In this document: positions 10,581-28,237 of the stretch, piece by piece
Numbering within the stretch: position 1 is the first letter of the stretch
Layout: every line of letters begins with the position of its first letter
Origin: Cytobacillus dafuensis
GTDB lineage: Bacteria; Bacillota; Bacilli; Bacillales; Cytobacillaceae
Direction: 5' to 3'
Length of the DNA: 64,000 nt
Assembly (NCBI RefSeq): GCF_007995155.1
Contig: NZ_CP042593.1
Location: 3,514,001 to 3,578,000 of the forward strand
Notes under the pieces: model-generated
Told to the model about the DNA's origin: nothing
Seen by the model: only the letters and a program-made list of their open reading frames with translations
Database searches by the model: none
Program-made: the position numbers and the translations under genes

Positions 10581-11681
<1,101 letters not shown>

Positions 11682-11776: not shown

Positions 11777-11790
11777 CTAAAAACATAGTG

Positions 11791-12480: not shown

Positions 12481-12534
12481 GTAATAATTCCTCCCTTATT
12501 ATACAGATGTAAGGGAGTTTAGATGAAAAAATAT

Positions 12535-13113
12535 TTATTTAGAAAATGGCATCACATACCCTGCATTTCTTAATTCTCGAACTGTTTTTGAAATAGGGAG
12601 GCCCATAACAGAGAAATAGTCACCGTCAATTTTTTTGACTAGCATGCTGCCGAAGCCTTGAATCCCATATGCCCCCGCTTTATCAAACGGTTCACCGGTG
12701 TCAATGTAAGCATTTATTTCTTCATCCGAAAGCTCCCAAAACACCACGTCTGATTTTACATAGAATTTTATTTCATTTTCAGGAGCAACTATCGTAACCC
12801 CCGTATAAACAGAATGCTCTTTCCCAGACAAATTTTTAATCATTGAATATGCATCTGCTCTGTCCTTTGGTTTTCCTAAAACAATCTCATCTAAAACAAC
12901 GATTGTATCAGCACCAATTACAAATGAATTAGGGTGTTGCATACTTACCGCTTTTGCTTTTCTGCTGCTAAGCTCCATGACAATTTCTCCCGGGGTTAAT
13001 TCGGGATCAAAGTTTTCATCAACATCACTGCTGGATACTTCAAATGTTATATGAAGATTTTCAAGAAGTTCTTTTCGTCGTGGAGAAGAAGAGGCTAAAA
13101 TGAGGTTTTGCAT
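12535..13113 (-). CDS. maf: Maf nucleoside triphosphate pyrophosphatase
   Basis: Maf proteins hydrolyse dTTP, UTP and modified nucleotides to monophosphates and affect septum formation. The 192 residues open LILASSSPRRKELL, the phosphate-binding loop. GADTIV (about residue 68) has the catalytic aspartate, and DKAGAYGIQGFG and DGDYFSVMGLP are the further family motifs. It sits between radC and spoIIB. Confidence 0.96.
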   Translation of the reverse strand: MQNLILASSSPRRKELLENLHITFEVSSSDVDENFDPELTPGEIVMELSSRKAKAVSMQHPNSFVIGADTIVVLDEIVLGKPKDRADAYSMIKNLSGKEHSVYTGVTIVAPENEIKFYVKSDVVFWELSDEEINAYIDTGEPFDKAGAYGIQGFGSMLVKKIDGDYFSVMGLPISKTVRELRNAGYVMPFSK

Positions 13114-13261
13114 ATTATCACCTGACCTTATATTCGTATCAATTTGGGAGATACATTATCATCGTACCAAAAATCAATTGGACAAACAATTTTTAACCCG
13201 ACAAATATCGTAAATTTTACTTTTTCCTTTTGAAAAAGTTTTAAGAAATAATGCATATAAA

Positions 13262-13294
13262 GGAGCCTGTCGAAAAATAATTGCAACAGACTCC
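13262..13294 (-). terminator. Probable spoIIB terminator
   Basis: Minus strand GGAGTCTGTTG, an 11-base loop, CGACAGGCTCC, then TTTATAT. The 11-pair stem has two G-U pairs. It lies about 80 bases after the spoIIB stop. Confidence 0.6.
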
Positions 13295-13370
13295 AATAAT
13301 ATGCATTATTTCCTAGAAAATATTCGATTTAGAGTGGATAATGTCAATATTTAGAATGAGTTATGCAGAT

Positions 13371-14456
13371 TTATGAGATAGACTGGAAGGTGGAAAGAAC
13401 TCTTAATAAATGCTGTTGGAGTTTTGTTAACACATTAGAGTCATTTGACTCACTATAAGCTTTTAACTGTGCATAGGCAAGGTCCAATTCACTTTTTAGT
13501 GAAATGATTCCTTCGTCCTTGAATTGATCCGTTTTAATAGCTTTTAAAATCGCAGCTTGCTTTTCGATATTATTTAAAGTTTCTTCTGATATACTATTGT
13601 CTACTGCAGCTTCAGTCGCTCCTGCTGTCATTATCTCAAAAATGAACGGTGCAGCTTCTATAAACTTTTTTTCTTCAGGAAGAAGACCATTTATTGACTT
13701 CTCTTCGAATGTAACTGGTTTAGCAAAAACCTCAATGTCCTTTCCCTTTAATTGTTGACCCAACTCTTTAGCGTCCTCGATACTATTAGCCACACTTAAA
13801 TAAAGAACGGCTTGCTCATTCATCTCAATGATCTGAGAAGGAATTCCTTTTTGAATATAATCCTCTTGAACTTGTTTTGCTGATTCTACAGTAGAGAACA
13901 CGCCTCCTTGAATGACAAATGTCGAAAGTGGTTTAATGAATACGGTCTCTGAGCCTTCTTCTTTTTCTTCTGGGGCCGGTTCAGCAATAACTGGAAGTTC
14001 GGTTTCCGTCGTGTTTTCAGTTTTGACTAATTTCAACATAATAATGCCGAAGCTTGTACCTAACAGAATGGCAAAAAAAACAGTAATAAAAACAGAAGTA
14101 AGTAAACCATTGCGGTTATTCTTTTTCAGACTACTTCCGAAAGCACTTAAACCTTTCTTATTAGACTTTTTCGATTGCGTTGCTATTTTATATTCTACTA
14201 AGTCCGGTTGTTCAAATGTATCTTCAGGTAGGATCCAATCAAAATTGTCATCGTCAGTTGTTTCTTTAGTTGCTGCTGCTTCATTTGAAGAAAAATAATC
14301 GAAATTAACCTTTTGATCTTCGTCTACTATCAATCTATCATTCTCTAAATCCTCTTGATTTAATTTATTCTCCGGAATCTTATTTTCTTCATATGAACGC
14401 TGATTTCCATTAATTTTTATCGTAATTGTTCTCTCTTTATCCGGCCTGTTCACCAT
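13371..14456 (-). CDS. spoIIB: Stage II sporulation protein B, SPOR domain membrane protein
   Basis: SpoIIB acts at the sporulation septum, where it helps place SpoIIM/P/D and start septal wall thinning before engulfment. The 361-residue model has a cytoplasmic acidic N-terminus beginning with ERTITIKINGNQRSYEEN, a membrane helix at about 117-141, and a SPOR peptidoglycan-binding domain at about 175-245 (STFVIQGGVFSTVESAKQ). A helical C-terminal part of about 110 residues follows. The start at 14456 sits behind GGAGGGAGGAC; a GTG one codon later is equally possible. Identification rests on architecture plus position between maf and the prepilin peptidase region. Confidence 0.85.
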   Translation of the reverse strand: MVNRPDKERTITIKINGNQRSYEENKIPENKLNQEDLENDRLIVDEDQKVNFDYFSSNEAAATKETTDDDNFDWILPEDTFEQPDLVEYKIATQSKKSNKKGLSAFGSSLKKNNRNGLLTSVFITVFFAILLGTSFGIIMLKLVKTENTTETELPVIAEPAPEEKEEGSETVFIKPLSTFVIQGGVFSTVESAKQVQEDYIQKGIPSQIIEMNEQAVLYLSVANSIEDAKELGQQLKGKDIEVFAKPVTFEEKSINGLLPEEKKFIEAAPFIFEIMTAGATEAAVDNSISEETLNNIEKQAAILKAIKTDQFKDEGIISLKSELDLAYAQLKAYSESNDSNVLTKLQQHLLRVLSTFQSIS

Positions 14457-14508
14457 TCGTCCTCCCTCCATGTAAATGGCTAATTTTGTTTCATCCTATC
14501 ATATCAAC

Positions 14509-14542
14509 AAAAAAAAATAACAAGACTTTTGTCGTCTTGTTA
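14509..14542 (-). terminator. Type IV pilus operon terminator
   Basis: Minus strand TAACAAGAC, a 7-base loop, GTCTTGTTA, then nine T. The 5' arm begins with the pilO stop codon. It isolates spoIIB from the pilus operon. Confidence 0.92.
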
Positions 14543-15337
14543 CCTTGGATTTTCGTCAAATTTTTCAAGAGAATCATCTTTTTCTTTCTCAAATTCATTT
14601 GAAATATCTTCCGAAATACTAAACGGATTTTTTTTGCCGCTTGGCTTCGGAACTTCCATTTTTGGAAGTTGATCAATTAAATCAGCTAGATTTGGCATAT
14701 AAAATGTTGCAATCGTGATTTGAGAAGTAATCAATTCTTTATCTTGATCCGTAGAAATAACCTCTTCAAGTCCGGTAATTTCTAATTTTTCGACTAGAAT
14801 GATACGCTCCTGAGATTCAAGTGTTTCGATAAATTTTTCAAGTTCAAAATAGCTCGGAGATTGAACAGTTAATACAGCAGTTGTTTTCTTCATTCCCGAA
14901 GGCATTGGAATATTTGATTTTTTATCGTCTACTTGTTCAGCCTCCGTTTTATCAGTATTTATTTCTTCATTAGCTGTATTTGTATTTTCTGATTCAATAA
15001 TATCTCCATCAGAAAACTCCATCTCCAGTACTAAACTATCTGAAACAACCTCTGCTTTTTCTATATCAAGTAATAATTGTTCGACTAAAGGCTTAACGGG
15101 AATCTGTTTTTGCAGCGATTCTGTGCTTGTAAAAGTATCAGACTGTGGATCATCAGGTATATGGCTTTCAACAGCTTCAAACAGCTTCTCAGTAGAACGC
15201 AATTCACTTTCTTTCGTAGATAATGCTGTTTTCAATGGCTGAATATAGAAAAAGTAGACTCCAGTAAAAAACATGATTAATACAATTACTACTAAGATAC
15301 CAATTTGCTTCTCTTTTTTTGGAAATTGAAGGGTCAT
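14540..15337 (-). CDS. pilO: Type IV pilus inner-membrane protein PilO-like
   Basis: PilO pairs with PilN in the alignment subcomplex of type IV pili. The 265-residue protein has a short cytoplasmic N-terminus, one membrane helix (about 13-33, ILVVIVLIMFFTGVYFFYI) and a coiled-coil stretch. A ferredoxin-like domain follows (about 150-220, TVQSPSYFELEKFIETLES). The last 35 residues are charged and rich in Glu, Lys and Ser, longer than usual. It overlaps pilN by 4 bases and is the last gene of the pilus operon. Assignment is by topology and order; sequence identity in this family is low. Confidence 0.85.
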   Translation of the reverse strand: MTLQFPKKEKQIGILVVIVLIMFFTGVYFFYIQPLKTALSTKESELRSTEKLFEAVESHIPDDPQSDTFTSTESLQKQIPVKPLVEQLLLDIEKAEVVSDSLVLEMEFSDGDIIESENTNTANEEINTDKTEAEQVDDKKSNIPMPSGMKKTTAVLTVQSPSYFELEKFIETLESQERIILVEKLEITGLEEVISTDQDKELITSQITIATFYMPNLADLIDQLPKMEVPKPSGKKNPFSISEDISNEFEKEKDDSLEKFDENPR

Positions 15338-15960
15338 GATTCATTCCTTCCTTGATTTTCCGCTTGCACATCTGCTTTTATCACGGATCTATTTAGAATT
15401 ATTTCATAATCCGCAAGATAACGTGGAATATACTGTTCCTCATGGTCCGTTCTCGCCGTTTGTTCTGTCTCTTCTTCAGTTGGTTCATTCGCAGTTAAAG
15501 TAATTAACCTTACATCCTCGATCCAATCTGTATCAAGCATAGATTTTAAATAGTAGGATGCTTCACGTTTTGTGTCAAACTGAACAAGCAACTGAATATT
15601 GCCTGTTTCTTCATATTGAATAGATTGAATAAAACCTCGTTCAGGCAACAACTCTGTAAATTTCCTTAACAAAGGAACTGTCTTAATCGGGTACTCCTTG
15701 GCCCATTCCACTGCCTTTTCTAGTTCTTCTAGCGAATTTGCTGATTCCGCATCAGTCATCTTTTTCTCATCAATCTCAATTAATTGCTGAGTTGTTGAGA
15801 TTTGCTGTTCAACTGTTTTTATTTTTGCTTTATATGATTGGCCTACCCACATTGTAATGAATATGCCTACTAAAAAGAAAAATATTAAAACTCCGACTAG
15901 CACAAAAAGAGCTGTATTTCTCGATTCCTTTTTCGGTAATAGGTTAATCTCAACGAGCAT
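15334..15960 (-). CDS. pilN: Type IV pilus assembly protein PilN-like
   Basis: PilN binds PilM through its conserved cytoplasmic N-terminus, seen here as MLVEINLLPKKES. A membrane helix (about 18-40) and a coiled coil lead to a periplasm-type fold (about 105-150, GFIQSIQYEETGNIQLLVQF) that pairs with PilO. The 208 residues fit the family. It starts 2 bases after pilM and overlaps pilO, so the three are translationally coupled. Confidence 0.92.
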   Translation of the reverse strand: MLVEINLLPKKESRNTALFVLVGVLIFFFLVGIFITMWVGQSYKAKIKTVEQQISTTQQLIEIDEKKMTDAESANSLEELEKAVEWAKEYPIKTVPLLRKFTELLPERGFIQSIQYEETGNIQLLVQFDTKREASYYLKSMLDTDWIEDVRLITLTANEPTEEETEQTARTDHEEQYIPRYLADYEIILNRSVIKADVQAENQGRNES

Positions 15961-15962
15961 AA

Positions 15963-16955
15963 TTACACCTCTTTTAATGCAAGCCCCAGAGCTAGATAAT
16001 GCGTCCTCGGAAGACTATCTTCTGTTGCTGAAGTTATTGAATTTATATTTAAAGTTTGAAGGGGGACATCAAATCTCTTCTCCATTTCTTTTTTTATTAG
16101 GTCAAGAAGCGGATGATCCCCATTTAGTAATATTTTTGAGACTTGCTGATTTCCTTGATTAATTGAATAACGATAGAAATCCATGAATTTTCTTATTTCC
16201 TTATAAATATCCTCCAATTGTAACAGCAGATCATTTGTTTCCCCGCTATATTGGAGGTTCTGCTTTCCAGCCTTATTCATATTAACATTCCACTTATCTT
16301 CATCAAAATCTATTAATAAATGGTGCATAAAAAAAGGAAGATGATTTTCAAAGATACAGATGTTTACTACGTTCGTATCAAATTGAACCATTAGTAATCT
16401 TTCAGCCTTATCCTGTAAGCCTAATTGATGGTAAAGCCGATAAAGTGAAAGCGAAGAAATATCTGCCGCATCAGGTATGAGTTTAACACCAGACAGCAAA
16501 TTGGAGTATTCTAAAACATTTTCTTCATTGCTGGCAAAAACGAGAACTTCACTCTTTTCTTTCCCTTTTGAAACTGTATACGTATCAAAGACAGGCTCAT
16601 CGAATGGAAGATGGATTCTTGTACCAAGTTCTAAATATAAATAGCCATTGATTTCGTCATCCTTCACATCTGCTGGAATCTCGACTTTTCGAATGATGAC
16701 ATAAGAATCTGGCACAATAAAACGAACAAATCGCTTTTGAATCTTCCAATCTACAATACATTCTTCTAGAATCATTGCTAAAGTTTCATGTTCAATAATC
16801 TTCCCGTCTCTAATGATGCCTAACGGAATAAACCGCTCTCCCCATCGAAGAATAGTAGGCGGCTTTGCTTGCTTCAATTCGACAAAACGAATGGAATAGT
16901 CATTGATAATAATATTTACCGTACGGTTTTTACGCGAAAAAAGGGAAAGAGCCAT
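15963..16955 (-). CDS. pilM: Type IV pilus assembly protein PilM (actin-like)
   Basis: PilM is a cytoplasmic FtsA/actin-fold protein that connects the pilus motors to the PilN-PilO membrane complex. The 330 residues show the actin-like start VNIIINDYSIRFVELKQ, IPADVKDDEINGYLYLELG, and LMVQFDTNVVNICIFENH at the phosphate-2 position. The usual GAxxT-like glycines at this loop are reduced, so nucleotide binding may be weak. It lies directly before pilN. Confidence 0.92.
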   Translation of the reverse strand: MALSLFSRKNRTVNIIINDYSIRFVELKQAKPPTILRWGERFIPLGIIRDGKIIEHETLAMILEECIVDWKIQKRFVRFIVPDSYVIIRKVEIPADVKDDEINGYLYLELGTRIHLPFDEPVFDTYTVSKGKEKSEVLVFASNEENVLEYSNLLSGVKLIPDAADISSLSLYRLYHQLGLQDKAERLLMVQFDTNVVNICIFENHLPFFMHHLLIDFDEDKWNVNMNKAGKQNLQYSGETNDLLLQLEDIYKEIRKFMDFYRYSINQGNQQVSKILLNGDHPLLDLIKKEMEKRFDVPLQTLNINSITSATEDSLPRTHYLALGLALKEV

Positions 16956-16985
16956 ATGAAAAACTCCTTAGTTAAAATCCTGTTG

Positions 16986-17735
16986 CTAATAAAGCACTAA
17001 ATAAAATTGGATGATCAAATCACCGTAAAAATAAGCTGTCAAAGTTCCTGCAGCAATAAAAGGACCAAAGGGAATCGGGTTTTTCCTTTTTAGTTTTCCT
17101 GTTATTAATCCAATAACACCAAAAAGAGAACCATATAAGGTTGCGATAAAAAAAGATAGCAGAACTAGTTTAAACCCTAGGACAAATCCAAGAACAGCAA
17201 ACAGCTTAATATCTCCGCCCCCCATTCCTCCTTTGCTAATGATCGCAATAAGCAGAAGAAGTAGAAATCCAGCAGCTGCTCCTAAAAGGGAATCCCACCA
17301 TGGTTCAAGTGGAATGAAGATTCGTTCCAACAAAAAAATCCCCATAAAAAAAACCAGCACTTTATCAGGGATAATCATATAAGTGACATCAGAAACGAAA
17401 ATAATCATAAATAATGAGATTAGCGTCCACGCGACAAATAGCTCACTAGTCCAACCTATTATAAGTGGAGCTGCTGCAAACAAAAGCCCTGTCATAAGTT
17501 CAACAATTGGATAAAGAGGAGAAATGCGCGCCTTACACTGGCGGCATTTCCCTCCCTGAATCACGAATGAAAATACTGGAATCAGCTCGAATGCTGTAAG
17601 CTTATGCTGGCAACTTGGACAGGCTGAGCGCGGTGTGACGATTGACTTTTTTTGTGGTACTCGCAGGCCAACAACGTTGTAGAAGGAGCCGAGTATTAGA
17701 CCAATTATCAATATATAGATTAGTATAAAATACAT
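16986..17735 (-). CDS. pilD: Prepilin peptidase and N-methyltransferase (PilD/ComC type)
   Basis: This membrane aspartyl protease cleaves the class III leader of prepilins and methylates the new N-terminus. The N-terminal cytoplasmic part carries two CxxC pairs (CPSCQH and CRQCKA). The active-site aspartates are in FVSDVTYMIIPD and GMGGGDIKL, the family GxGD motif. Eight hydrophobic segments fill the rest of the 249 residues. In B. subtilis the same place next to spoIIB is held by comC, so this is likely its orthologue, here inside a pilus operon. It should process all four pilin-like proteins of the window. Confidence 0.95.
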   Translation of the reverse strand: MYFILIYILIIGLILGSFYNVVGLRVPQKKSIVTPRSACPSCQHKLTAFELIPVFSFVIQGGKCRQCKARISPLYPIVELMTGLLFAAAPLIIGWTSELFVAWTLISLFMIIFVSDVTYMIIPDKVLVFFMGIFLLERIFIPLEPWWDSLLGAAAGFLLLLLIAIISKGGMGGGDIKLFAVLGFVLGFKLVLLSFFIATLYGSLFGVIGLITGKLKRKNPIPFGPFIAAGTLTAYFYGDLIIQFYLVLY

Positions 17736-17776
17736 AGGCTAACACTCCAATAAATATACGTTTATGAAATCTTTAA

Positions 17777-18208
17777 TTATTCGTTTTTATCACTATAATC
17801 ATAACTATTTACTTCAGAAATTGTTCCTTCAAATTTTGCAGGGGAAGTTTGACCTTTAGCAGTAATACCTTCTTTTGCTGTTGCATCAATACTTGGTGTA
17901 CCATTTTCAAACTCTACAGTATAAGATACTAGATTTTCTACCTCATTTATAAATTCTTTGAATTTTTCATTATCTTCATCAAGTGAGGTATTACCATCGA
18001 CCTCATAGGAAGCCGAGTATAATTTAGCCGCATTTAACACTTGAAGGGCATCAGCTTTTGCAGCATCATATTTCGACTTTGCAATTATATTTCCTATACT
18101 AGGTACTGCAATCGCCGCAATAATCCCTAAAATAACTACAACCGCTAGTAATTCAATAAGTGTCAACCCTCTTTGATCTTTTAATCTTTGTCCAATTTTC
18201 TTTAACAT
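17777..18208 (-). CDS. pilA: Major type IV pilin
   Basis: The 143-residue prepilin has a short basic leader ending QRG, then LTLIELLAVVVILGIIAAIAVP. The cleavage site is after Gly14, and Glu5 of the mature protein (Glu19) is present. The globular part is acidic, has no cysteine, and is only about 95 residues, typical of Gram-positive type IV or pseudopilins. The start has AGAGGAAGGTTAGT upstream. It is flanked by pilC and pilD, and a gap of 99 bases before it may hold an extra promoter. A ComGC-like competence pseudopilin is the alternative, but the PilT and PilMNO neighbours favour a true pilus. Confidence 0.9.
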   Translation of the reverse strand: MLKKIGQRLKDQRGLTLIELLAVVVILGIIAAIAVPSIGNIIAKSKYDAAKADALQVLNAAKLYSASYEVDGNTSLDEDNEKFKEFINEVENLVSYTVEFENGTPSIDATAKEGITAKGQTSPAKFEGTISEVNSYDYSDKNE

Positions 18209-18251
18209 ACTAACCTTCCTCTCATTTTCTGTGATATAAGTCCTATTTATA

Positions 18252-18280
18252 ATTATACTATCAAATTACTATAAAACTAG
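18252..18280 (-). promoter_or_regulatory. Possible internal promoter before pilA
   Basis: The 99-base pilC-pilA gap has a minus-strand TATAAT (18252-18257), with a poor CTAGTT-like -35 about 17 bases upstream. Strong separate expression of the major pilin would make sense, but the -35 match is weak. Confidence 0.35.
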
Positions 18281-18307
18281 TAAATTTTGTTAATATTTTG
18301 CAAATGA

Positions 18308-19513
18308 TTATCCTACTTGATTAAATATTTCAAACATCGGGACCATAATCGACGTGACAATTGTTCCAACTATGCCTGCAAGTACGACAATCATAAGTGG
18401 TTCGATTAGAGATTTGATTCTATCTGTACTGTTTTCAACTTCTTTTTCATAGAAATCAGCTACTTTGCCGAGCATAGCGTCGAGCACACCTGTTTCCTCA
18501 CCAATCGCGATCATTTGTGTCACTAGCGGTGGAAAGGCCCAATGCTTTTTCATTGGTTCTGTCAATGATTGCCCTTTTTCAAGTGAATTTCTTGATTGGC
18601 GAATGACTCGTGCCATCACTTCATTTTCGACGATTTTTTCAACGATCGACATTGCTTGTAAAATAGGGACTGAGCTAGTAAATAATGAGCTCATGGTCCT
18701 TGTCATCCTCGCTAATACAGCCTTTTGCAGCATCTTTCCAAACACAGGAATGCGTAGAATGAGTAAGTCCAAATAGTATTTCGTACGCAGGTTCTTTCTT
18801 AGGATAGCAATTGTCATACCAAATGCAAGAATCATCATTAGAATTAACCACCAATAGGCCTGCATAAATTCGCTTGAGCTTAAAACAAAACGGGTAATGG
18901 CAGGCAGTTCACCGCCAAAATCTTCAAACATGGCCACAAATGTTGGAACAACTGCTACTAATAAGAAAATAACAACCGCAATTGCTATGATACCAACAAC
19001 AACTGGATAGGCAAGTGCTGAAATAATTTTTTGCTTCGTGTTATGCTGCTTTTCAAAATGATCAGCAAGCCTTTCCAGTGTTTCATCCATATTCCCACCC
19101 GCTTCACCTGCTCTAACCATGTTGATAAATATGGGTGTGAATATTTTATTATTTTTTGCGGCAGAATCTGATAACGGAATCCCCTCACGCAGGTCTTGTT
19201 CGATATCAAGCAGAACTTTCTTTAATGGTTTACTCTCCGTTTGTTCAGCAAGTATTCTCGTAGAATTAACTACAGATACACCCGCTTTTAATAAAGTTGA
19301 AAACTGTCTTAGGAAAATAACAAAATGCTGAAGTTTAACAGGATTGCCAATTGAAATATCTTTTGTCAAGAAGGATTCAGGAATTTGGGCAATTTCAAGT
19401 ACCCGAATATCTTCCTCCTTCAGCTTAAGCATTGCCTCCCTTTTTGAATTAGCTTGAATGACACCCTCTTTTTTTCCTTTACGGTCTCTTCCTGAGTATT
19501 TAAATCGTGCCAT
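18308..19513 (-). CDS. pilC: Type IV pilus inner-membrane platform protein PilC
   Basis: PilC is the membrane platform on which the motor ATPases turn. The 401-residue model begins MARFKYSGRDRKGKKEGVI, the usual N-terminus, then has two T2SSF domains. The first contains FLRQFSTLLKAGVSVVNS and the second MTRTMSSLFTSSVPILQAM, both family signatures. Three membrane helices are visible near 170-190, 225-245 and 375-395. The ATG lies one base after the pilT stop; a longer frame would run far into pilT and is rejected. Confidence 0.96.
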   Translation of the reverse strand: MARFKYSGRDRKGKKEGVIQANSKREAMLKLKEEDIRVLEIAQIPESFLTKDISIGNPVKLQHFVIFLRQFSTLLKAGVSVVNSTRILAEQTESKPLKKVLLDIEQDLREGIPLSDSAAKNNKIFTPIFINMVRAGEAGGNMDETLERLADHFEKQHNTKQKIISALAYPVVVGIIAIAVVIFLLVAVVPTFVAMFEDFGGELPAITRFVLSSSEFMQAYWWLILMMILAFGMTIAILRKNLRTKYYLDLLILRIPVFGKMLQKAVLARMTRTMSSLFTSSVPILQAMSIVEKIVENEVMARVIRQSRNSLEKGQSLTEPMKKHWAFPPLVTQMIAIGEETGVLDAMLGKVADFYEKEVENSTDRIKSLIEPLMIVVLAGIVGTIVTSIMVPMFEIFNQVG

Positions 19514-19514
19514 A

Positions 19515-20564
19515 TTAAATGATAATCTCCTGTAAAAAGGGTTCTGCAGCTTCTTTGGAAATAATGCCTGCATGGACGAGATCATTAATACTACTCTCAA
19601 GTGTATGCATTCCTTGAGCACGAGACGTTTGCATAATGCTTATGATTTGATGGATCTTTTCATTGCGAATAAGATTGCCAACCGCCGCATTATTCATTAA
19701 TATTTCAGTTGCTGCTTTCCGCCCTTGCTTATCTTCTCGGCGAAAAAGCCGTTGGGATATGACCGCTACTAAAACAGAAGCCAGTTGAATTCTAATTTGA
19801 GGCTGCTGGGACGGTGGAAAGACATCAATTATTCGATTAATCGTTGCTGGAGCACTTGATGTATGCAGGGTTCCTAACACTAAATGCCCCGTCTCAGCTG
19901 CCGTAATCGCTGTTTGTATCGTTTCCAAATCTCGCATTTCCCCGACAAGGATTATGTCAGGGTCCTGCCGTAATGCCGCTCTTAGGCCATTGGCAAAATT
20001 CATCGTATCAAATCCTACTTCTCGCTGATCAATAATTGAATTCCCATGTTTATGGAGATACTCAATTGGATCTTCAAGGGTAATAATATGTTTTCGCATC
20101 GTATTATTCATGTACTGAATCATAGAAGCAAGGGTTGTTGATTTGCCGCTTCCAGTTGGGCCTGTCACAAGGACAAGGCCCTGTGGTTTTTCTGAAATCT
20201 TCCGTAATACATTGGGCAATTCCAACTCATCAATGGATGGAATTTTCGTAGGAACCACCCTTATCGCCAGAGAAATACAAGAACGTTGATGATATGTATT
20301 TACACGAAACCGAGAAACACCTGGGATGCCATATGAAAAATCTAATTCTCCCTTATCCTTAAAATGAGTCCACATACGATCCGGTATAACCGCTTTTGCC
20401 ATTCCTTCTGTCTCATCGGGCTTCAGGATCTCTTTTCCATATTTTTTCAATTCGCCATTGATCCGCATAATAGGTTGAACGCCTACCGTTAAATGAAGAT
20501 CTGAAGCTTTTAATTCAAATGCGGCGCGTAATAAATATTCTATTTTATCTTTCACTATTTGCAC
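19515..20564 (-). CDS. pilT: Twitching motility retraction ATPase PilT
   Basis: PilT is the hexameric ATPase that depolymerises the pilus and drives retraction. The 349 residues contain the PAS-like N domain, Walker A GPTGSGKSTTLASM, and the Asp and His boxes (ITLEDPIEYLHKH, TGHLVLGTLHTSSA). DPDIILVGEMRDLETI forms Walker B. The PilT-specific AIRVVP motif is present (LAIRVVPTKIP). It follows pilB by 2 bases and is coupled to pilC. Its presence separates this system from the ComG competence machine of B. subtilis, which lacks a PilT. Confidence 0.96.
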   Translation of the reverse strand: MQIVKDKIEYLLRAAFELKASDLHLTVGVQPIMRINGELKKYGKEILKPDETEGMAKAVIPDRMWTHFKDKGELDFSYGIPGVSRFRVNTYHQRSCISLAIRVVPTKIPSIDELELPNVLRKISEKPQGLVLVTGPTGSGKSTTLASMIQYMNNTMRKHIITLEDPIEYLHKHGNSIIDQREVGFDTMNFANGLRAALRQDPDIILVGEMRDLETIQTAITAAETGHLVLGTLHTSSAPATINRIIDVFPPSQQPQIRIQLASVLVAVISQRLFRREDKQGRKAATEILMNNAAVGNLIRNEKIHQIISIMQTSRAQGMHTLESSINDLVHAGIISKEAAEPFLQEIII

Positions 20565-20566
20565 CC

Positions 20567-22228
20567 CTATTCGAGTGTTGCTACTCTCAATACTTCTTCT
20601 GTCGTTGTTAAACCTTGTTTTACTTTTAATAAGCCATCATCTACAAGAAAAATCGTTTTATGTTTAATAGCTAATTCTCTTAATCTTGCAATAGATTCTC
20701 CATTCATAATCGTGCGTCTTATTTCATCATTTATTACTAGCACTTCATGTATAGCAATTCGTCCTTTATAGCCTGTCATACTACAAGAGGAACATCCCCG
20801 TCCACGAATTACTTTTTCTATATTCATACCTCTTCTTGCAAAAATTTCAATTTCCCGTTTAGAAGGTACATGCTCCTCTGCACAATCTCGGCATACCCTT
20901 CTTACAAGCCTCTGGGCAATAATTCCGCTTAGTGATGAGGCAACTAAAAATGGCTCTACTCCCATATCCATTAATCTAGTAATCGTCCCAATCGAATCAT
21001 TTGTATGCAAAGTACTAAGTACAAGATGTCCTGTTAACGAAGCACGAATCGCAACTTCAACTGTTTCCTTATCCCTAATTTCTCCGACCATAATAATATT
21101 CGGATCTTGGCGGAGAATGGAACGAAGACCTGTAGCGAAAGTCATACCAATATTCGTGTTTACTTGAATTTGATTGATTCCTTCCAATTGGTACTCAACA
21201 GGGTCTTCAATTGTAATAATATTAACCTCTTCACTATTCAATTTATTTAATGCTGCATATAAAGTAGAGGATTTTCCTGAGCCAGTAGGACCTGTTATCA
21301 GAACAATCCCAGTTGGCTTTTCAATCATTTCTATGAACCGTTTTAAATTTAATTTATTAAAGCCAAGTTTATTTATATCATTTAATGAACTGCCTAAATC
21401 AAGGATCCGCAAAACTATTTTTTCACCAAAAACTGTCGGCAAAGTAGATACACGTAAATCTACTGGATGGAAATCGAGATTTACCTTTATTCTGCCATCC
21501 TGAGGAATACGGTGTTCTGTAATATCTAAATTGGCCATTATTTTTATTCTTGCTGTTAAAACACCCTGCATATGCTTTGGAAGAACTCGTTCTACTCTTA
21601 ATACTCCATCTATTCGGTATCGAACAATTACCTTCGTTTCTTGATGATCGATATGAATATCACTTGCTTTCATCGAAACTGCATTTGAAATTATTTGATT
21701 TACTAATCGCACAATAGGAGAGTCTTGATCCGTAATTTTTTCTTCTTGGTGACTTTCAGTTTGAGGATTATCACTTATTAATTCTTCAAAGCCTTCATCA
21801 ATGTCATAGTATTTATTAATTGCTCTTAAAATATCATCTTTCGTTGCAATCGCCGTCTCAATTTGGAAACCTGTTGATAATCGCAAATCATCGATAGAAA
21901 AGAAGTCCATCGGGTCTGCCATAGCGACATAAAGCTTGTCCCCTTCTTTTTTTAGAGGAATTAAAAGCTGCCGTTTTGCTGTTTCCTTTGAAATAATACT
22001 AAATAGTTTTGTGTCAAATGGATATCGATATAAACTAATATGAGGAATTCCAAGCTGAAATTCAAGTACTTCAATAAGCTGTTGCTCTGTAATATATCCC
22101 CTTTGCAGTAAAGCATCACCGAGTCTTTGTCCTTCACTTTTTTCCTTTAATGTAGTGTGTAGCTGATCTTCAGTTAATAGACCAGCATCAATAAGTAGAT
22201 CCCCAAGCCGTTTTCGGATTTGTTTCAT
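20567..22228 (-). CDS. pilB: Type IV pilus extension ATPase PilB
   Basis: PilB (553 residues) powers pilus extension. It has the N-terminal MshEN repeats (RLGDLLIDAGLLTEDQL and RLGDALLQRGYITEQQL) that bind c-di-GMP in some family members. A linker and the GspE ATPase core follow, with Walker A GPTGSGKSSTLYAAL near residue 315 and Walker B DPNIIMVGEIRDKETV. Four cysteines in CRDC and CSSC form the zinc motif. The MshEN region makes direct control by the diguanylate cyclase encoded nearby plausible, which is inference. It begins the pilB-pilT-pilC block. Confidence 0.96.
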   Translation of the reverse strand: MKQIRKRLGDLLIDAGLLTEDQLHTTLKEKSEGQRLGDALLQRGYITEQQLIEVLEFQLGIPHISLYRYPFDTKLFSIISKETAKRQLLIPLKKEGDKLYVAMADPMDFFSIDDLRLSTGFQIETAIATKDDILRAINKYYDIDEGFEELISDNPQTESHQEEKITDQDSPIVRLVNQIISNAVSMKASDIHIDHQETKVIVRYRIDGVLRVERVLPKHMQGVLTARIKIMANLDITEHRIPQDGRIKVNLDFHPVDLRVSTLPTVFGEKIVLRILDLGSSLNDINKLGFNKLNLKRFIEMIEKPTGIVLITGPTGSGKSSTLYAALNKLNSEEVNIITIEDPVEYQLEGINQIQVNTNIGMTFATGLRSILRQDPNIIMVGEIRDKETVEVAIRASLTGHLVLSTLHTNDSIGTITRLMDMGVEPFLVASSLSGIIAQRLVRRVCRDCAEEHVPSKREIEIFARRGMNIEKVIRGRGCSSCSMTGYKGRIAIHEVLVINDEIRRTIMNGESIARLRELAIKHKTIFLVDDGLLKVKQGLTTTEEVLRVATLE

Positions 22229-22252
22229 ACATCATCCCTGCTTTATTGGTGA

Positions 22253-23584
22253 TTATTTCATTTGTTCCTTTGGTTTCCCCCAAAGATCATTTGTATTTTC
22301 GATCGTTCCAGATGAATCATCAGTGTTTTCTGGAGATGCAGATTTTACATCATCATTTTGACTCTCGGTAGTGTTAACATTTTCTTCCGAAGGAGACTCT
22401 TCTTGTAATTCATTATTATTTTTTTCTTTATTAATTAGCCCGTACACTTCAATACGATGAATTGGCGGATAATAATCCTCTGAGATTTCTTCTCTACTTA
22501 AAAACGCACCGTTTTCATCATAAACTTCACGGAAAACTTTAATTATTAACCCTTCTTTTCCTTCGGTTTTAACTTTTTTTTCATTCGGGTTCAATAGTGG
22601 GCTATAATGCTTGATTGTTTTCGGTTTAAAGGTCTGTTCATCCTGTTTCGTAATAACATATTTATTCAAAAAGGTCGTCCCTTTTAGCGATAAAGTTAAT
22701 GTATTCTCACGCAACAGAAGGTCAATGACATAACCATTATCATTTGGATTAGCAAAAATCAAATCCATGCTTTTTTCGGCATCAACCTTTGCTTCAAATC
22801 CTAATTGTGCATATTCAGGTTTATCATTGCTAATATATCTTTCAATTATTGGAAAATTAGTTGGTAAAATTAATTGATAAATTGCCGTAGCTAATTTATT
22901 AATAGCAATTGGAGATTCCTTTTCCAATCCATTCTCTTCAAGGAATTTTAAAAGAGAAAATTGAGAATTTGGTTGAATTTCGATAGTTGATAGCTTTTCT
23001 ATTATCCGCCTCATGTCAGCGTCTGTATCCTTGAATTCTATACTAGATTCATTAATAACAGCATTCTGATTTTTGTTTGCACCCATTAAATAGTTCTCTA
23101 GACTAAATTCTAAATTTTCGGATTCTAATATCTTGGCACTCTTTAATAAGTCTGACATTAGCTTATCAAAGTCAATCATATCACTATTTAATGATGGGAA
23201 TGAATCAAGGATTTCATTCTCTAATGTATTATTTTCAAAATCAACAAGCAGCATATTTTTCTGTCCATTATTTACAGACTTCACTGAATCAACAATGTTA
23301 AACCGAAAATGAGAATTATTTAGTAATATTTTTTTCTCTTTATATCTAATATGTATATTCATTTCTTCTAACCAACGGGTCAATTGTTCGTCCACTAGTT
23401 GCATCGCTTCTGTTTCAGTTTTCCCTGAAACATCTACAATACCAGCCGTCGTTCCTTCGGCAAAGGTGTTTGTATTATTCAAAATCGAATGAAATGCTGA
23501 GGCACCAAAATGTGAGAAGGAAAAGATAAAAAAAGTGCATAGAAATAGAATGATAAATAGTTTAACTCCTAGCATATTTCTCAC
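22253..23584 (-). CDS. Secreted or membrane-anchored divergent VanW-like / G5 domain protein
   Basis: The 443 residues begin with a signal or anchor segment (about 8-28). A YoaR-type part follows (AGIVDVSGKTETEAMQLVDE, about 47-66). Residues about 203-290 align with the VanW domain, but the usual GGGxCQxST core is replaced by AINKLATAIYQLILP. A G5-like domain (about 310-380, ending VYDENGAFLSREEISEDYY) and an acidic Ser/Asn-rich tail complete it. G5 domains are wall- or sugar-associated. It lies 24 bases before pilB, so a role in passing the pilus through the wall is an inference. No function is established. Confidence 0.65.
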   Translation of the reverse strand: MRNMLGVKLFIILFLCTFFIFSFSHFGASAFHSILNNTNTFAEGTTAGIVDVSGKTETEAMQLVDEQLTRWLEEMNIHIRYKEKKILLNNSHFRFNIVDSVKSVNNGQKNMLLVDFENNTLENEILDSFPSLNSDMIDFDKLMSDLLKSAKILESENLEFSLENYLMGANKNQNAVINESSIEFKDTDADMRRIIEKLSTIEIQPNSQFSLLKFLEENGLEKESPIAINKLATAIYQLILPTNFPIIERYISNDKPEYAQLGFEAKVDAEKSMDLIFANPNDNGYVIDLLLRENTLTLSLKGTTFLNKYVITKQDEQTFKPKTIKHYSPLLNPNEKKVKTEGKEGLIIKVFREVYDENGAFLSREEISEDYYPPIHRIEVYGLINKEKNNNELQEESPSEENVNTTESQNDDVKSASPENTDDSSGTIENTNDLWGKPKEQMK

Positions 23585-23616
23585 ATGCGGACTCTCCTTT
23601 ATACTTACATGAAACT

Positions 23617-24456
23617 TTATTTATGAAAAACTAGTTCTTCAATTTCAATCTCATCATTTGAAATAGATTCTCTATTCTCTTTTTGTTCAGTATTACTTGC
23701 TCGAGTAAGTTCAATTTCCTCTATTTCTTCCATTTCGACATCAATTCGATGTTGAACAAGTTCAAGATTTTCTTTAAAGTCAATGTCATTTGTTTCTATT
23801 AATTTTTCAATTTCAGACATATTAACGGTTGCAAACTCATTCTCATCATATTCAAATTTTACATCGATAGAGTCATGGTTATCGAATTTAATCGCTCGAT
23901 TCGTTAGGAATGAGATATCTTCTTCCATATCTAGTAAATCATCTTTTTTTTCATAATGACTTAATTCTGTTTCAAATTTCTTAAAATTATCTTCCAGAAT
24001 CTGAATGTCCTTTTGCTTTTCAGATTCATCGTCTACGTTTTTGAGAATATGATCTTCTTCAAGAGGGTTTTCTATTTGTTCTGTTGCATTTAAATCATTG
24101 GCAGATGTAATCGATTCTAGTTCTAATTGTGGCTTTGAATCCACTTTTTCCATATATAAATTTTCATGTTCTTGGATGTTTGGTTTCTTTTCTTTTAATC
24201 TGATATTTGACTGGGAAGACAAACTCTTCGCAAATTTCTTCTCTAAAATAAATGTAGTTAAAATGATCAGCAATATTATAATCAGCACTGATTGAAAAAG
24301 TTGGAATTGAGTATTGGCCATAAGCCCTACATTGGCAAAAAGAAATGCAATACCAATTAAACCTAATTTCTCTTTAATTGAATACCCAATCGGTAACAAA
24401 AACATTATTGGAATAAGAATAATCAATGAGGCTATTGCCAAAATAAAGGCTACCAC
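23617..24456 (-). CDS. Three-helix membrane protein with long acidic cytoplasmic tail, unknown function
   Basis: The product (279 residues) has three hydrophobic helices in its first 75 residues, then about 200 highly charged residues rich in Glu, Asp, Asn and Lys, predicted mostly helical or disordered. I do not recognise the family. The GTG at 24456 is chosen because AGGGGGG lies 7 bases upstream; an ATG five codons earlier overlaps that site. It is the first gene of the minus-strand pilus operon and faces the divergent minor pilin genes across 183 bases. Its position suggests a pilus-specific regulator or scaffold, which is unproven. Confidence 0.7.
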   Translation of the reverse strand: MVAFILAIASLIILIPIMFLLPIGYSIKEKLGLIGIAFLFANVGLMANTQFQLFQSVLIIILLIILTTFILEKKFAKSLSSQSNIRLKEKKPNIQEHENLYMEKVDSKPQLELESITSANDLNATEQIENPLEEDHILKNVDDESEKQKDIQILEDNFKKFETELSHYEKKDDLLDMEEDISFLTNRAIKFDNHDSIDVKFEYDENEFATVNMSEIEKLIETNDIDFKENLELVQHRIDVEMEEIEEIELTRASNTEQKENRESISNDEIEIEELVFHK

Positions 24457-24490
24457 TCTATCCCCCCTCATGAAAGTATAATCCGAATCT

Positions 24491-24520
24491 ACTATAAAAA
24501 CCGCAGGAAATTTGTTACAA
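24491..24520 (-). promoter_or_regulatory. Candidate promoter of the pilus operon
   Basis: Minus strand TTGTAA (24515-24520), 18 bases, TATAGT (24491-24496), about 35 bases before the first start codon. Found by eye. Confidence 0.45.
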
Positions 24521-24554
24521 TTTTTCAAAAACTACTAAAAAAGTCCTATTATGA

Positions 24555-24583
24555 CTTATATTGATTGATTCATATTGTATAAT
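24555..24583 (+). promoter_or_regulatory. Candidate promoter of the minor pilin operon
   Basis: A consensus TATAAT (24578-24583) has CTTATA 17 bases upstream as a weak -35. It lies about 55 bases before the first minor pilin start and back to back with the pilus operon promoter. Confidence 0.4.
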
Positions 24584-24639
24584 AAATAAAAGCGATTGAG
24601 AAGATTGTTTGTTTAAACTTCAGTATGGAGGAAAAGAAG

Positions 24640-25062
24640 ATGAACCAAAAAGGGATTACGTTATTAGAAGTGCTGCTATCAATGTTAATACTCTCCATCA
24701 TATTAGTCTCTTTTTTTAGTTTCTTCTCCCAATCAGCAGTATTCATAAAAAAAAATGATGATAAATTATCTGCTGTAAATACTGCTCAAATGGTATTAAA
24801 TATATTGCAAGAAAATGAGAAAAAAAACACACTTTATTTACCACAAAGTGTTTTAGAGGACGTTAATAGTGGTAAATCAAGTATTATTACTAATGAAATG
24901 GATGAATTTAGCACATTATTAAATCAAGATATACAGTCTAGTTTTAAGATAAGTCTAGAATTTAAAGAAGGATATGAAAAATTAATACAAGTCAAAATAA
25001 TGGTAAGTGACCCCAAAAATAATAAAAATGAAGCTAAAACCTATACATATATAAGCAGGTGA
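24640..25062 (+). CDS. Minor pilin-like protein (PilV/PilI type)
   Basis: The 140-residue prepilin reads MNQKG before the cut and ITLLEVLLSMLILSIILVSFF after it, with Glu5 of the mature form present. The start at 24640 has GGAGG 8 bases upstream; an in-frame ATG five codons earlier overlaps that site. The globular part is rich in Lys and Asn. It is the first of three tandem minor pilins on the plus strand, divergent from the main pilus operon, and should be a substrate of the prepilin peptidase at 17 kb. The order (V, W, X type) matches minor pilin operons that prime pilus assembly. Confidence 0.82.
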   Translation: MNQKGITLLEVLLSMLILSIILVSFFSFFSQSAVFIKKNDDKLSAVNTAQMVLNILQENEKKNTLYLPQSVLEDVNSGKSSIITNEMDEFSTLLNQDIQSSFKISLEFKEGYEKLIQVKIMVSDPKNNKNEAKTYTYISR

Positions 25063-25067
25063 AAGAT

Positions 25068-25538
25068 GTGAAAATTTTTTCTGAAAAAGGGTTAACCTTA
25101 ATCGAAGTACTAGCGACTTTGACAATTTCATTCATTATTTTTGGGTCTATATATGGTGTTTTTATTAGTGTAAACAAAAATTATACTGGTTTAACCGAAA
25201 AAAACAATTTAAGTCAGGAAGCAAATATAATTATTACTACTATAAAAAAATACTATCTAGCAAACTCTGAATTTATATTAAAATACAATGAAGATAAAGA
25301 AACAGTTTTTATTGGTAAAAATGATAGTGAACCACTTATCGCTCTAACAGATCAAAATATTAAAATAGAAGAATTTTTAGCTTGTAAAGAAGAGATAACG
25401 GGCATGAACAAGAAAAAATGTGAAGATGAGGATAAATACGAAAATATCACAACATGGGAACCACTTTATCTAAAAATAACACTCTCAAATAAAAAAGGTC
25501 AGAAATATAACATTGATACAATGATTAATAAGTATTAG
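25068..25538 (+). CDS. Minor pilin-like protein (PilW/PilJ type)
   Basis: The 156-residue prepilin has the leader MKIFSEKG and then LTLIEVLATLTISFIIFGSIY, again with Glu5. I chose the GTG at 25068 because AGGTG lies about 8 bases before it; another GTG at 25059 overlaps the stop of the preceding gene. The body has two cysteines (ACKEE and KKKCED) that may form a disulfide. It is the second gene of the minor pilin group and is coupled to its neighbours by short spacing. The function is inferred from the leader and the gene order only. Confidence 0.8.
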   Translation: MKIFSEKGLTLIEVLATLTISFIIFGSIYGVFISVNKNYTGLTEKNNLSQEANIIITTIKKYYLANSEFILKYNEDKETVFIGKNDSEPLIALTDQNIKIEEFLACKEEITGMNKKKCEDEDKYENITTWEPLYLKITLSNKKGQKYNIDTMINKY

Positions 25539-25548
25539 GAGTGAATTT

Positions 25549-26478
25549 ATGAAGAATGAGAAAGGGTCATCCTTAATAGTAGTATTACTAATCATTACTT
25601 TAATTTCAGTATTTTCTCTTGTTATTATGAGTTCTACTGTAAACTCTCGCTTACAATTTAATAGTACTGAAAAAACAAATGTTTCAACGGATATTGCAGA
25701 AATGGGGATAACCCATTATTATACTTTGTTTAAAAAACTAGCAAAAGAGGCCTATTCTGACGCAGACACAGAAACTATAGACTGGGTAAAAAAATATTCA
25801 AAAAACAATAAAAGTAAGGATGAGCCTACACAACAGGAAATAATAGACTATTTTAATGAGCAATTTTGTAGCAATCTTTTAAATTACCAAGAAGTTAAAA
25901 TTAATTATGAATCTATCTTTCCGATTGAAAATGAAAAGTATCAATTATACGTTACTAATTCACCGTCTGAAACAGCATGTGCTAAGACCTTAAATACATT
26001 GGAATTTACATTCACGAGTATAGGAGAGTTTGAAAAACAAAAAAAGGAATTAACTGGTACTATTACAATGAATAAAGGTAATGAGATAAACGATCCAGCT
26101 CCTTCTCATCCTCCTGATTCTAATCATTTCAAATACATAGTTAATAACAAAATATATAATAAGTATTACGATGGTTCAGTTTATTTTAAAGAGAGAATTG
26201 ACATGAACGGAAATAGTAAAGAATTAGTCATCAACGGTGATGCTTATTTTGCTAAAGGTTTGGTTCTTAATGGAAATGTTACTTTAAAGATTAACGGAAA
26301 TGCCTATTTTCTCGACGTAAGAAAGAATGGAAGTTCAGGAAATATTTGTGTAACTGGGCAAACTTTCAAAATACAAGACTCAACGTTGATACCTTATCCT
26401 CTTCCTGGAAATTCTTGTTCATCAAACAACGACAAATGGGATCCTGACTCACTCAATATTGATGTTGAGTATAATTAA
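25549..26478 (+). CDS. Minor pilin-like tip protein (PilX/GspK type) with repetitive C-terminal domain
   Basis: The 309-residue product has a leader MKNEKG followed by SSLIVVLLIITLISVFSLVI. The residue at mature position 5 is Val, not Glu. In GspK and PilX-type proteins loss of Glu5 marks the subunit at the pilus tip. Residues about 200-285 contain repeated units such as ELVINGDAYFAKG and TLKINGNAYFLD. These look like a short beta-helix, similar in pattern to bactofilin or PilX-associated adhesin parts. Five cysteines occur. It starts behind GGAGTGAATTT and ends at a bidirectional terminator. An adhesive role is inference. Confidence 0.78.
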   Translation: MKNEKGSSLIVVLLIITLISVFSLVIMSSTVNSRLQFNSTEKTNVSTDIAEMGITHYYTLFKKLAKEAYSDADTETIDWVKKYSKNNKSKDEPTQQEIIDYFNEQFCSNLLNYQEVKINYESIFPIENEKYQLYVTNSPSETACAKTLNTLEFTFTSIGEFEKQKKELTGTITMNKGNEINDPAPSHPPDSNHFKYIVNNKIYNKYYDGSVYFKERIDMNGNSKELVINGDAYFAKGLVLNGNVTLKINGNAYFLDVRKNGSSGNICVTGQTFKIQDSTLIPYPLPGNSCSSNNDKWDPDSLNIDVEYN

Positions 26479-26486
26479 TAGCTATT

Positions 26487-26523
26487 AAAAAAGCAGCTAG
26501 AACTAAAGTTCTGCTGCTTTTTT
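26487..26523. terminator. Bidirectional terminator between minor pilins and diguanylate cyclase
   Basis: AAAAAAGCAGC and GCTGCTTTTTT flank an inner AGAAC/GTTCT stem with one bulge. T-rich ends on both strands serve the converging genes. The 3' arm overlaps the cyclase stop codon. Confidence 0.88.
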
Positions 26524-28237
26524 ATTTCACATACTCCGCCACTCGATTCCTTCCTGCTCTTTTCGCACCAACATATAAAGCCCTGTCAGCATGACGTATG
26601 AGTGTAAGAGGATTGTCTGCATCCTGCAGAGCTGTGGCTACGCCGATAGATACAGTGATTTGAACTTGCCGAGTTAGTTCCTTCGGCCCAATATGCTGGT
26701 CGAGAGTGAATAGGTGGTTAGCAATTAATCTTCTTATTAATTCGGCGGTTGTAAGGGCTTCTTCCTTTTCAATATTCGGAAGAAGGATGACAAATTCTTC
26801 ACCGCCGTAACGAGCAACCGTTCCAGTATGATCTATTATACTCATTAGTTCAGTTGCAAGTTGACGAAGGATTTCATTTCCGCTTTGATGACCATAGGTG
26901 TCATTAATGGATTTGAAATGGTCAATATCAAGAATTATTAATGATAATGATTCTTTTTCTTGATTTTTCAAGCTCTCAAATTCGCTGAATAATACATTTT
27001 CGAAATAACGATAATTGTAAAGGCTCGTTAGCGCGCAGCGTTCACTCAAGGCTTTTGTTTTTTCGTAATTTCTTGCATTCTCGATCGCAATAGCAAAGTG
27101 AGAGCAAAGAATATCGACAATCATTAGCTGAGATTTTTTATATGATCTTTTTTGAGTTGAAGCAAGCAAAAGAACTCCTGTTACTTGGCTATTGCGAACA
27201 ATAGGGACACTTAATACGCTTTCCACATTCTCAGGCATATACCCTTTCACAATATGTTTCCATTCTTTTTCTGAGCTGTATAATGCTGATTTTTTCTGCT
27301 CCCATACTTGACCGCTGATACCTTCACTCTTTTTGAGCGGCTGTATGTTGAAGGATTTTCTTTCTCCTTTTTCAACTTGGCGAATGAGATGAAGCTCTTC
27401 ATTATCAACAATGTCAAGAATATATGCATAATCAACAGGGAGCATTTCAGTCAACTTCTGAATAAATAAATCTAATACTTCATCCATATTAAGTCTTTCA
27501 GCAAGTTGATGACCGATATCTGTTGCTTTTTGTAGAAGCTCATTAATATTTTTACTAGCAGAATAAAGATTTAGTGTGATAGACAGACTAGCAAATGGGA
27601 CACTAACAAAGATGACTGCTAAAAATCCAACTTCCTTATGTAGAATATAAAGGACTAAACCAATCGGTAATGACATAAAAGTTGTGATTGTCTCCCAAAC
27701 AAAGTCTTTACCAAAAACTTCTCTTTTTCCTTTATATATACTATAGTTAATCACCGCTATGAATAAATGATTAAAAAAATAAGAGAGAACGGGATAAATG
27801 ACATATAGCCAAAGTGATAGTCCTTCTTCGTAAAAACTAGCACCGGTATCCCCTACAATATAATAAAAGATCCCACCACTCAGTAAAGATACGAGAAAAA
27901 ACATAATGGAGTTGAGAGGAATCCTATAAAATTGTTCCTTTGATAGTCGTATTCTTATAAAGAGCACAGCTAACGTCAATTGAGCAATTACAAGCTCTAT
28001 AAACAAGCCAAAAGTTAAAAAAACGGCCCAAGAAACCCATTGTAACAAAAAGATCGGAGCACCATTAATGACCATTGGAGTTGCCGCTACAAAGAATGCT
28101 AGACATAAAAATAATAGAATGTCTACAATATCAAAAGAGATTTGAGGAGGATACATCCGATAAGTTAGCCATAAACCAGTTGGGAAAACTAATAGCCATA
28201 AAGCCCAAATTAATTTTTTCTTATTAGAGCTAACCAT
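26522..28237 (-). CDS. Membrane diguanylate cyclase with GAF and GGDEF domains
   Basis: The enzyme makes cyclic di-GMP from two GTP. The 571 residues show an N-terminal membrane sensor of about seven helices (10-225), a GAF domain (about 250-390) and a GGDEF domain (about 400-571). The active loop is RYGGEEF (GGEEF at 478-482), with substrate residues LDIDHFKSINDTYGH. The inhibitory RxxD I-site nine residues before the loop is absent (Asp and Gly at those places), so product inhibition is unlikely. It converges on the minor pilin operon. Control of the neighbouring pilus through PilB is a reasonable guess. The ligand of the sensor is unknown. Confidence 0.92.
   Translation of the reverse strand: MVSSNKKKLIWALWLLVFPTGLWLTYRMYPPQISFDIVDILLFLCLAFFVAATPMVINGAPIFLLQWVSWAVFLTFGLFIELVIAQLTLAVLFIRIRLSKEQFYRIPLNSIMFFLVSLLSGGIFYYIVGDTGASFYEEGLSLWLYVIYPVLSYFFNHLFIAVINYSIYKGKREVFGKDFVWETITTFMSLPIGLVLYILHKEVGFLAVIFVSVPFASLSITLNLYSASKNINELLQKATDIGHQLAERLNMDEVLDLFIQKLTEMLPVDYAYILDIVDNEELHLIRQVEKGERKSFNIQPLKKSEGISGQVWEQKKSALYSSEKEWKHIVKGYMPENVESVLSVPIVRNSQVTGVLLLASTQKRSYKKSQLMIVDILCSHFAIAIENARNYEKTKALSERCALTSLYNYRYFENVLFSEFESLKNQEKESLSLIILDIDHFKSINDTYGHQSGNEILRQLATELMSIIDHTGTVARYGGEEFVILLPNIEKEEALTTAELIRRLIANHLFTLDQHIGPKELTRQVQITVSIGVATALQDADNPLTLIRHADRALYVGAKRAGRNRVAEYVK

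Follow-up and report, generated by a model that had tools for sequence, protein, structure and literature searches.

A type IVa pilus locus around the prepilin peptidase gene of Cytobacillus dafuensis and the probable relic status of Bacillus subtilis comC

The 64,000-nucleotide stretch of the Cytobacillus dafuensis genome analysed here (NZ_CP042593.1, positions 3,514,001 to 3,578,000; the window, whose numbering is used below) holds a type IVa pilus (pil) locus between folC and spoIIB. We conclude, with a probability of about 0.85, that the prepilin peptidase gene within this locus, pilD, is the same gene as comC, that one peptidase serves both the pil pilus and the ComG pilus, and that the lone comC of Bacillus subtilis is the relic of a lost, ancestral, retractable type IVa pilus operon. 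This conclusion is built on gene content, synteny, pil gene remnants, the single peptidase and motif conservation.

The ComC peptidase of B. subtilis serves ComG, and its gene lies in the order folC-comC-spoIIB; it is of the same family as PilD, and the other pil genes are missing there. The first-pass annotation of the window had placed the pil genes in place of comC, which has the direction wrong: pilD, inside the locus, corresponds to comC in both position and phylogeny, and on the evidence lone comC is more probably the reduced state.

The folC-spoIIB site across the order

The folC-spoIIB interval was compared across relatives in 120 genomes (species) of the order, the window's genome included. 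We took 119 regions around peptidase hits (118 genomes; two for G088, none for G053, which has no peptidase hit) and labelled them with profiles derived from genes of the window; outside the order the sample consisted of 21 regions, of 60 that had been chosen. The 119 order regions comprise 77 complete loci, 23 lone comC loci, 13 partial loci and 6 classed as elsewhere, which brings the complete loci to 78 of 120 with the window. Lone comC lies between folC and spoIIB in 22 regions, and the count of 23 includes G037, where its called start overlapped folC. Flank genes are in view in 71 of the 78 complete loci and in none of the other seven (folC in 46, spoIIB in 67, both in 43). The folC-spoIIB interval spans 7.7-17.0 kb in those 43 loci and 0.9-3.7 kb in 21 of the 22 lone loci, the remaining one (G073) measuring 7.8 kb. 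Complete loci occur in 38 of 47 families, 11 of which contain both states; complete and lone loci share a genus five times (g6, g33, g42, g47, g51), and a complete locus stands beside a remnant-bearing one in genera g23 and g31. In the sample from outside the order, 8 of the 21 regions have folC ahead of the pil genes.

Six of the 13 partial loci are reduced. The others are G018, complete by tblastn; G057, truncated where its contig stops; G086 and G116, without pilT in the region; the second G088 locus and G089, with another gene arrangement; and G114, a weak stray match. In all six reduced loci the peptidase gene is intact. G098 keeps minor-pilin pieces and a pilM matched over 212 of 334 residues; G101 has pilM in two frames, a cut pilN and a piece of pilO; G071 retains the start of the acidic-protein gene and the end of pilO. 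G025 has lost pilB, pilT, pilC and pilA and retained pilM, pilN and pilO, G011 lacks pilB and has only the end of pilT, and G083 has a pilin gene left beside the peptidase. A pilin piece is also present in the lone locus of G059, which brings remnants or leftovers to seven genomes. For G098 and for G071, two other members of the genus have complete loci.

On a peptidase tree of 118 rows (unrooted, quick search), lone ComC sequences are scattered among PilD with 13 state changes. Forcing lone ComC into one clade (19 lone and 81 complete rows) costs 385 log units (approximately unbiased test, p = 2e-49); that test omits L035, L053, L055 and L063, which are long branches and all lone comC. In the full PilD tree, the four long terminal branches all belong to lone ComC. 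A flank tree of maf, radC and folC, also unrooted, was made from 80 rows with at least two of the three genes (53 complete, 23 lone, 4 partial) and gives 15 state changes, or 17 with the partial loci taken as reduced. Both trees omit L108, the second G088 locus, and class rows L140-L160. B. subtilis Maf is closest to that of genus g46 (79% in G112, 64% in G043), both genomes being lone; the family of g46 also holds a complete locus, G082, which the flank tree does not join with g46.

One peptidase and several filament systems

The host genome, a single 4.9 Mb contig close to Cytobacillus citreus (pilM 93% identical), has one A24 peptidase in a search of both A24 families, and this is pilD of the pil locus. 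A separate comG operon, the presence of which the first-pass annotation had left to be checked, lies ~185 kb away, with ComGA, GB, GC, GD and GF above curated cut-offs. As the sole A24 peptidase found, PilD would therefore have to process the ComG prepilins too, barring an unrecognised enzyme. Four clear T2SSE ATPases are encoded (PilB, PilT, ComGA and one in a tad-type locus), and a weak fifth match fits SpoIIIAA. The tad-type locus, at 0.682-0.698 Mb (G000, L162), has an ATPase, two T2SSF proteins, TadE, and SAF-domain and ParA-like proteins, so that the host genome has pil, com and tad systems.

Across the order, an A24_N peptidase is found in 119 of 120 genomes, in single copy in 118, and ComGA is above cut-off in 115. 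Among the five genomes without ComGA over cut-off, ComGB is above its own in four and below it in G077; ComGA matches are weaker in G043 and G077. At E≤1e-60, 85 of the 120 genomes have at least two matches of the ComGA/PilB type. Only one such match is found in 21 of the 23 lone-comC genomes, which accordingly have no PilB at that threshold. In G014, G108 and G113, all with complete pil loci, comGA is split into two pieces 13-50 kb apart and looks interrupted by an inserted element.

Gene content, motif conservation and pilin exchange

The genes named in the first-pass annotation are all open and lie at the coordinates it gave. Read along the minus strand from folC, the order is a GAF-GGDEF gene, three plus-strand minor-pilin genes and, again on the minus strand, the acidic-protein gene, VanW-G5, pilB, pilT, pilC, the major pilin gene, pilD, pilM, pilN, pilO, spoIIB, maf, radC and mreB. 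The pil locus occupies 14.5-26.5 kb of the window; its features and flanks are as follows (lengths in amino acids, aa).

13371..14471, minus strand: spoIIB, flank; SPOR domain E 8e-4, slightly below cut-off, and synteny
14540..15337, minus strand: pilO, 265 aa; solved PilO found by orthologue profile, E 4e-9; Pfam PilO at E≤0.01 in 12 of 27 orthologues
15334..15960, minus strand: pilN, 208 aa, N-terminal INLLP; Pfam PilN at E≤0.01 in 23 of 30 orthologues; solved PilN 1e-9
15963..16955, minus strand: pilM, 330 aa; PF11104 (PilM_2) 2.5e-18
16986..17735, minus strand: pilD = comC, prepilin peptidase, 249 aa; PF06750 and PF01478, the genome's sole match to either family
17777..18208, minus strand: pilA, major pilin, 143 aa, class III signal peptide QRG/LTLIE (cleavage, at the slash, placed by eye); N_methyl 3.9e-8; diverged from C. 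citreus
18308..19513, minus strand: pilC, platform, ~401 aa; T2SSF 2.8e-66; start inferred (C. citreus orthologue 401 aa; the mechanical open reading frame extends to 19621)
19515..20564, minus strand: pilT, retraction ATPase, 349 aa; TIGR01420 479 bits, cut-off 319
20567..22228, minus strand: pilB, extension ATPase, 553 aa, N-terminal MshEN motif pair (residues 7-58); PF00437, PF05157; NF053729 60 bits, cut-off 38
22253..23584, minus strand: VanW-G5 protein, 443 aa, N-terminal hydrophobic helix; PF04294, PF07501; model mean pLDDT 82
23617..24528, minus strand: acidic protein, 303 aa, hydrophobic N-terminal part; without Pfam or NCBIfam match
24625..25062, plus strand: minor pilin 1; N_methyl 1.1e-6
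25059..25538, plus strand: minor pilin 2; N_methyl 4.8e-4, 20.0 bits, under the cut-off of 21.2
25549..26478, plus strand: minor pilin 3 candidate, C-terminal part variable; assigned from its position and an N-terminus judged by eye, without family match over cut-off
26522..28237, minus strand: GAF-GGDEF diguanylate cyclase, GGEEF active site, membrane part by eye; PF00990 6e-42, GAF_2 1.5e-15
28318..29625, minus strand: folC, flank; Mur ligase domains

Gaps from the acidic-protein gene through spoIIB are at most ~100 bases (with the pilC start as inferred), which makes a single transcription unit plausible. An Rfam scan over 11-31 kb gave no match at E 0.1, and promoter- and terminator-like sites at the locus are no commoner than in shuffles.

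By gene content the locus has the parts of a type IVa pilus: PilB with PilC, PilT, PilM-PilN-PilO, and class III pilins with a prepilin peptidase. The T2SSE matches on PilB and PilT, MshEN on PilB, T2SSF on PilC and the A24 peptidase and N-terminal domains on PilD are Pfam matches, those of PilB and PilC far above cut-offs; PilT is above the curated PilT/PilU cut-off, and PilB (624 of 676 bits) and PilM (97 of 133 bits) fall below their curated NCBIfam cut-offs. PilN and PilO of the window have no Pfam match at E≤0.001 and none above an NCBIfam cut-off; their identities come from the orthologue profiles, and the window's PilO is not among the 12 of 27 with a Pfam match. A LysM domain was matched on 3 of 27 PilO orthologues, a further hint of wall contact. 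Many order genomes have another PilM_2 match in a frame of ~720 aa, often ~200 kb from pilM. ComG models score lower on the locus than their cut-offs (PilB 263 bits against 300 for ComGA; pilin 19.5 against 75 for ComGC), and the claim of a complete locus with PilT and PilM-PilN-PilO, set apart from ComG, is borne out. The proposed trio of minor pilins holds for the first, is marginal for the second and lacks a pilin-family match for the third; the family of the latter ranges from 135 to 1220 aa, its homologue search returned three relatives besides itself, and its N-terminus has a weak sub-threshold match to tapirin, a cellulose-binding protein. More than one gene matching the major-pilin profile, often between pilO and spoIIB, is present in 16 complete order loci (e.g. 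L024, L032, L048). The locus is a real, ordinary member of the type IVa pili, for which a motile or adhesive role may be supposed from gene content; its place and history are what is surprising.

The two extra genes of the first-pass annotation are those for the VanW-G5 protein and the 303-aa acidic protein without a family match. By profile, 71 of the 78 complete loci have VanW-G5 and 59 have the acidic protein, and none of the 23 lone loci has either; weak tblastn VanW matches in the lone G033 and G043 regions lie beyond folC, outside the interval. The predicted VanW-G5 model comprises a hydrophobic helix, an extended N-terminal part that no solved structure matches, and a G5 domain; against solved structures at E≤0.001 it retrieves G5-containing entries only. 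We take the protein to be membrane-anchored and outside the cell, from topology judged by eye, and it may have a role at the wall. A C-terminal DLWGK motif was considered as an order-wide feature of VanW-G5 and fails, being present in 2 of 75 (plus one ELWGK).

Residues 7-58 of PilB exceed the cut-off of the NCBIfam c-di-GMP (cyclic di-GMP) motif model NF053729, with the motifs in tandem, and G9, G37 and Q58 are invariant in 81 of 81 PilB sequences, so that control of PilB by c-di-GMP may be expected. The neighbouring cyclase gene, absent from the first-pass annotation, has an intact GGEEF. A GGDEF gene accompanies 33 of the 46 complete loci whose folC is visible, and 9 of the 23 lone loci have one; a functional tie of the cyclase to the pilus is possible.

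Compared with C. citreus, the window is 93% identical in DNA over 10000-17715 and 92% over 18018-23854, and diverged over 17715-18018 (pilin) and from 23854, inside the acidic-protein gene, to the end of that locus (window 23854-26478). Protein identity is 87-98% for the machinery and VanW-G5, 59% for the major pilin and 32-42% for the minor pilins and acidic protein. The synonymous divergence (dS) is 0.8-2.2 for the major pilin, minor pilins and acidic protein against 0.1-0.3 for the machinery and VanW-G5, and the ratio of nonsynonymous to synonymous divergence (dN/dS) of the latter group, 0.05-0.30, indicates that these genes are not decaying. In G085-G115 and G005-G118, two of 13 further pairs, the major pilin is the only one to stand out; most of the remaining pairs are too diverged at fourfold sites for a judgement. 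The pilin gene, the minor-pilin genes and most of the acidic-protein gene have likely been exchanged by recombination between close relatives, which fits surface-exposed subunits under diversifying pressure.

Pilus operons of this kind have been described before. The available text of Imam 2011 (PMC3244431) lists pil operons in Bacillus sp. NRRL B-14911 (B. infantis), two Geobacillus and one Exiguobacterium, and calls the Bacillus operon possibly a first report; the first-pass view that such pili are less studied in Bacillaceae is thus fair, with the proviso that operons were on record in 2011. As in our genome, a Bacillales pil operon occurs along with a com operon, and NRRL B-14911 has tad operons; the folC-spoIIB site, a relic comC and the VanW-G5 and acidic genes are not discussed in that portion. 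The type IV pilus of clinical Paenibacillus thiaminolyticus strains shares PilB with MshEN motif, PilT, PilC, prepilin peptidase and PilM-N-O components (PMC9765702, in the text available); there it is called a mobile insertion, whereas here most complete order loci share a syntenic site. The reference strain used there keeps a truncated pilB, and the supposed insertion may instead reflect a deletion in that strain. According to the accessible part of PMC6916266, PilM-PilN-PilO is specific to type IVa pili, and the type IVa machine of the monoderm Streptococcus sanguinis includes PilM-N-O, PilT and minor pilins; it is described as confined to that species among streptococci and probably acquired, unlike the order-wide locus described here. 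Excerpts of Denise 2019 and Pelicic 2019 place type IVa pili in Firmicutes, and comC is termed a distant loner in the available text of PMC10790768. An explanation of comC as a relic was not found in the open-licence literature searched, as far as its accessible text goes.

Alternative histories and the fate of the pilus

Loss as the direction of change is argued from the remnants and from the implausibility of repeated insertion around comC, the trees being unrooted quick searches. The opposite history, with lone comC ancestral, pil operons inserted around it repeatedly and comC adopted as pilD, strikes us as quite unlikely. Change counts on an unrooted tree cannot separate gain from loss, and the Paenibacillus operon offers a published precedent for insertion (PMC9765702, as available), but repeated insertion would have to leave comC midway in the same gene order; moreover, reduced comC loci have remnants of pil genes next to them, and folC also precedes pil genes outside the order. 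It is very unlikely that the locus is a secretion device, a pseudopilus like that of type II secretion: PilB and PilC score near type II models (GspE 606 of 630; GspF 393 of 424), yet PilT is above its curated cut-off, PilM is present, and PilT and PilM-N-O are confined to pili in the published descriptions seen in part (PMC9765702, PMC6916266).

Type IVa pili are known from other phyla to power DNA uptake. That the pil genes here serve DNA uptake together with ComG gains from this, from the common peptidase and from the complete pil loci of all three genomes with interrupted comGA; we hold it unlikely nonetheless, as ComGA is above cut-off in 115 of 120 genomes and 35 of 120 have no PilB-type match at E≤1e-60, so that ComG does not depend on pil.

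Several observations weigh against our reading of the pil locus and of lone comC. Loss is read from remnants in only seven genomes, and tblastn found no remnants in the other lone loci, including those of genus g46. The pil locus is not always at the folC-spoIIB site, to judge from the seven complete order loci with no flank gene in the stretch taken, and G053 falls outside a census whose regions were chosen by peptidase hit. PilB has lysine at position 30 in 80 and at position 35 in 75 of 81 sequences, both departing from the MshEN consensus. Since 9 of the 23 lone loci still have the GGDEF gene, its association is not exclusively with the pilus. Nor is ComG intact everywhere, comGA being broken in G014, G108, G113 and G043; in G043, a lone-comC genome with comGA in two overlapping frames, the argument that competence retains the peptidase is weak.

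On our reading of the locus, the cells would be piliated, PilB extending and PilT retracting the fibre through the PilC platform, with PilM-PilN-PilO as the membrane alignment complex and PilD cleaving pil and ComG prepilins alike. A one-membrane cell needs no secretin, VanW-G5 being a candidate guide of the fibre through the wall, and the MshEN domain would make extension by PilB responsive to c-di-GMP. The locus would be ancestral at the folC-spoIIB site in the order and lost many times, the peptidase being kept, we propose, because the competence pilus needs one, and B. subtilis comC would be the remainder of a lost pil locus. A fuller version remains tentative, and we would sooner bet against than for it: the ancestor of the order would have had a c-di-GMP-controlled pilus at folC-spoIIB, with a monoderm-specific wall module (VanW-G5 and the acidic membrane protein) instead of a secretin and with pilin and minor-pilin genes passed on as exchangeable cassettes, B. 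subtilis comC being the last gene left.

If the relic interpretation is true, comC, studied for decades in B. subtilis as a competence gene, would lie apart from comG (PMC10790768, available text) because it stayed behind as the pilus operon disappeared. The interpretation suggests that a retractable pilus, lost by the model organism, is kept in most species of the order. The order would then be a natural series in which the loss recurs and intermediate stages are preserved. The interpretation also opens ways to test whether the peptidase is shared and how a pilus crosses a thick wall.

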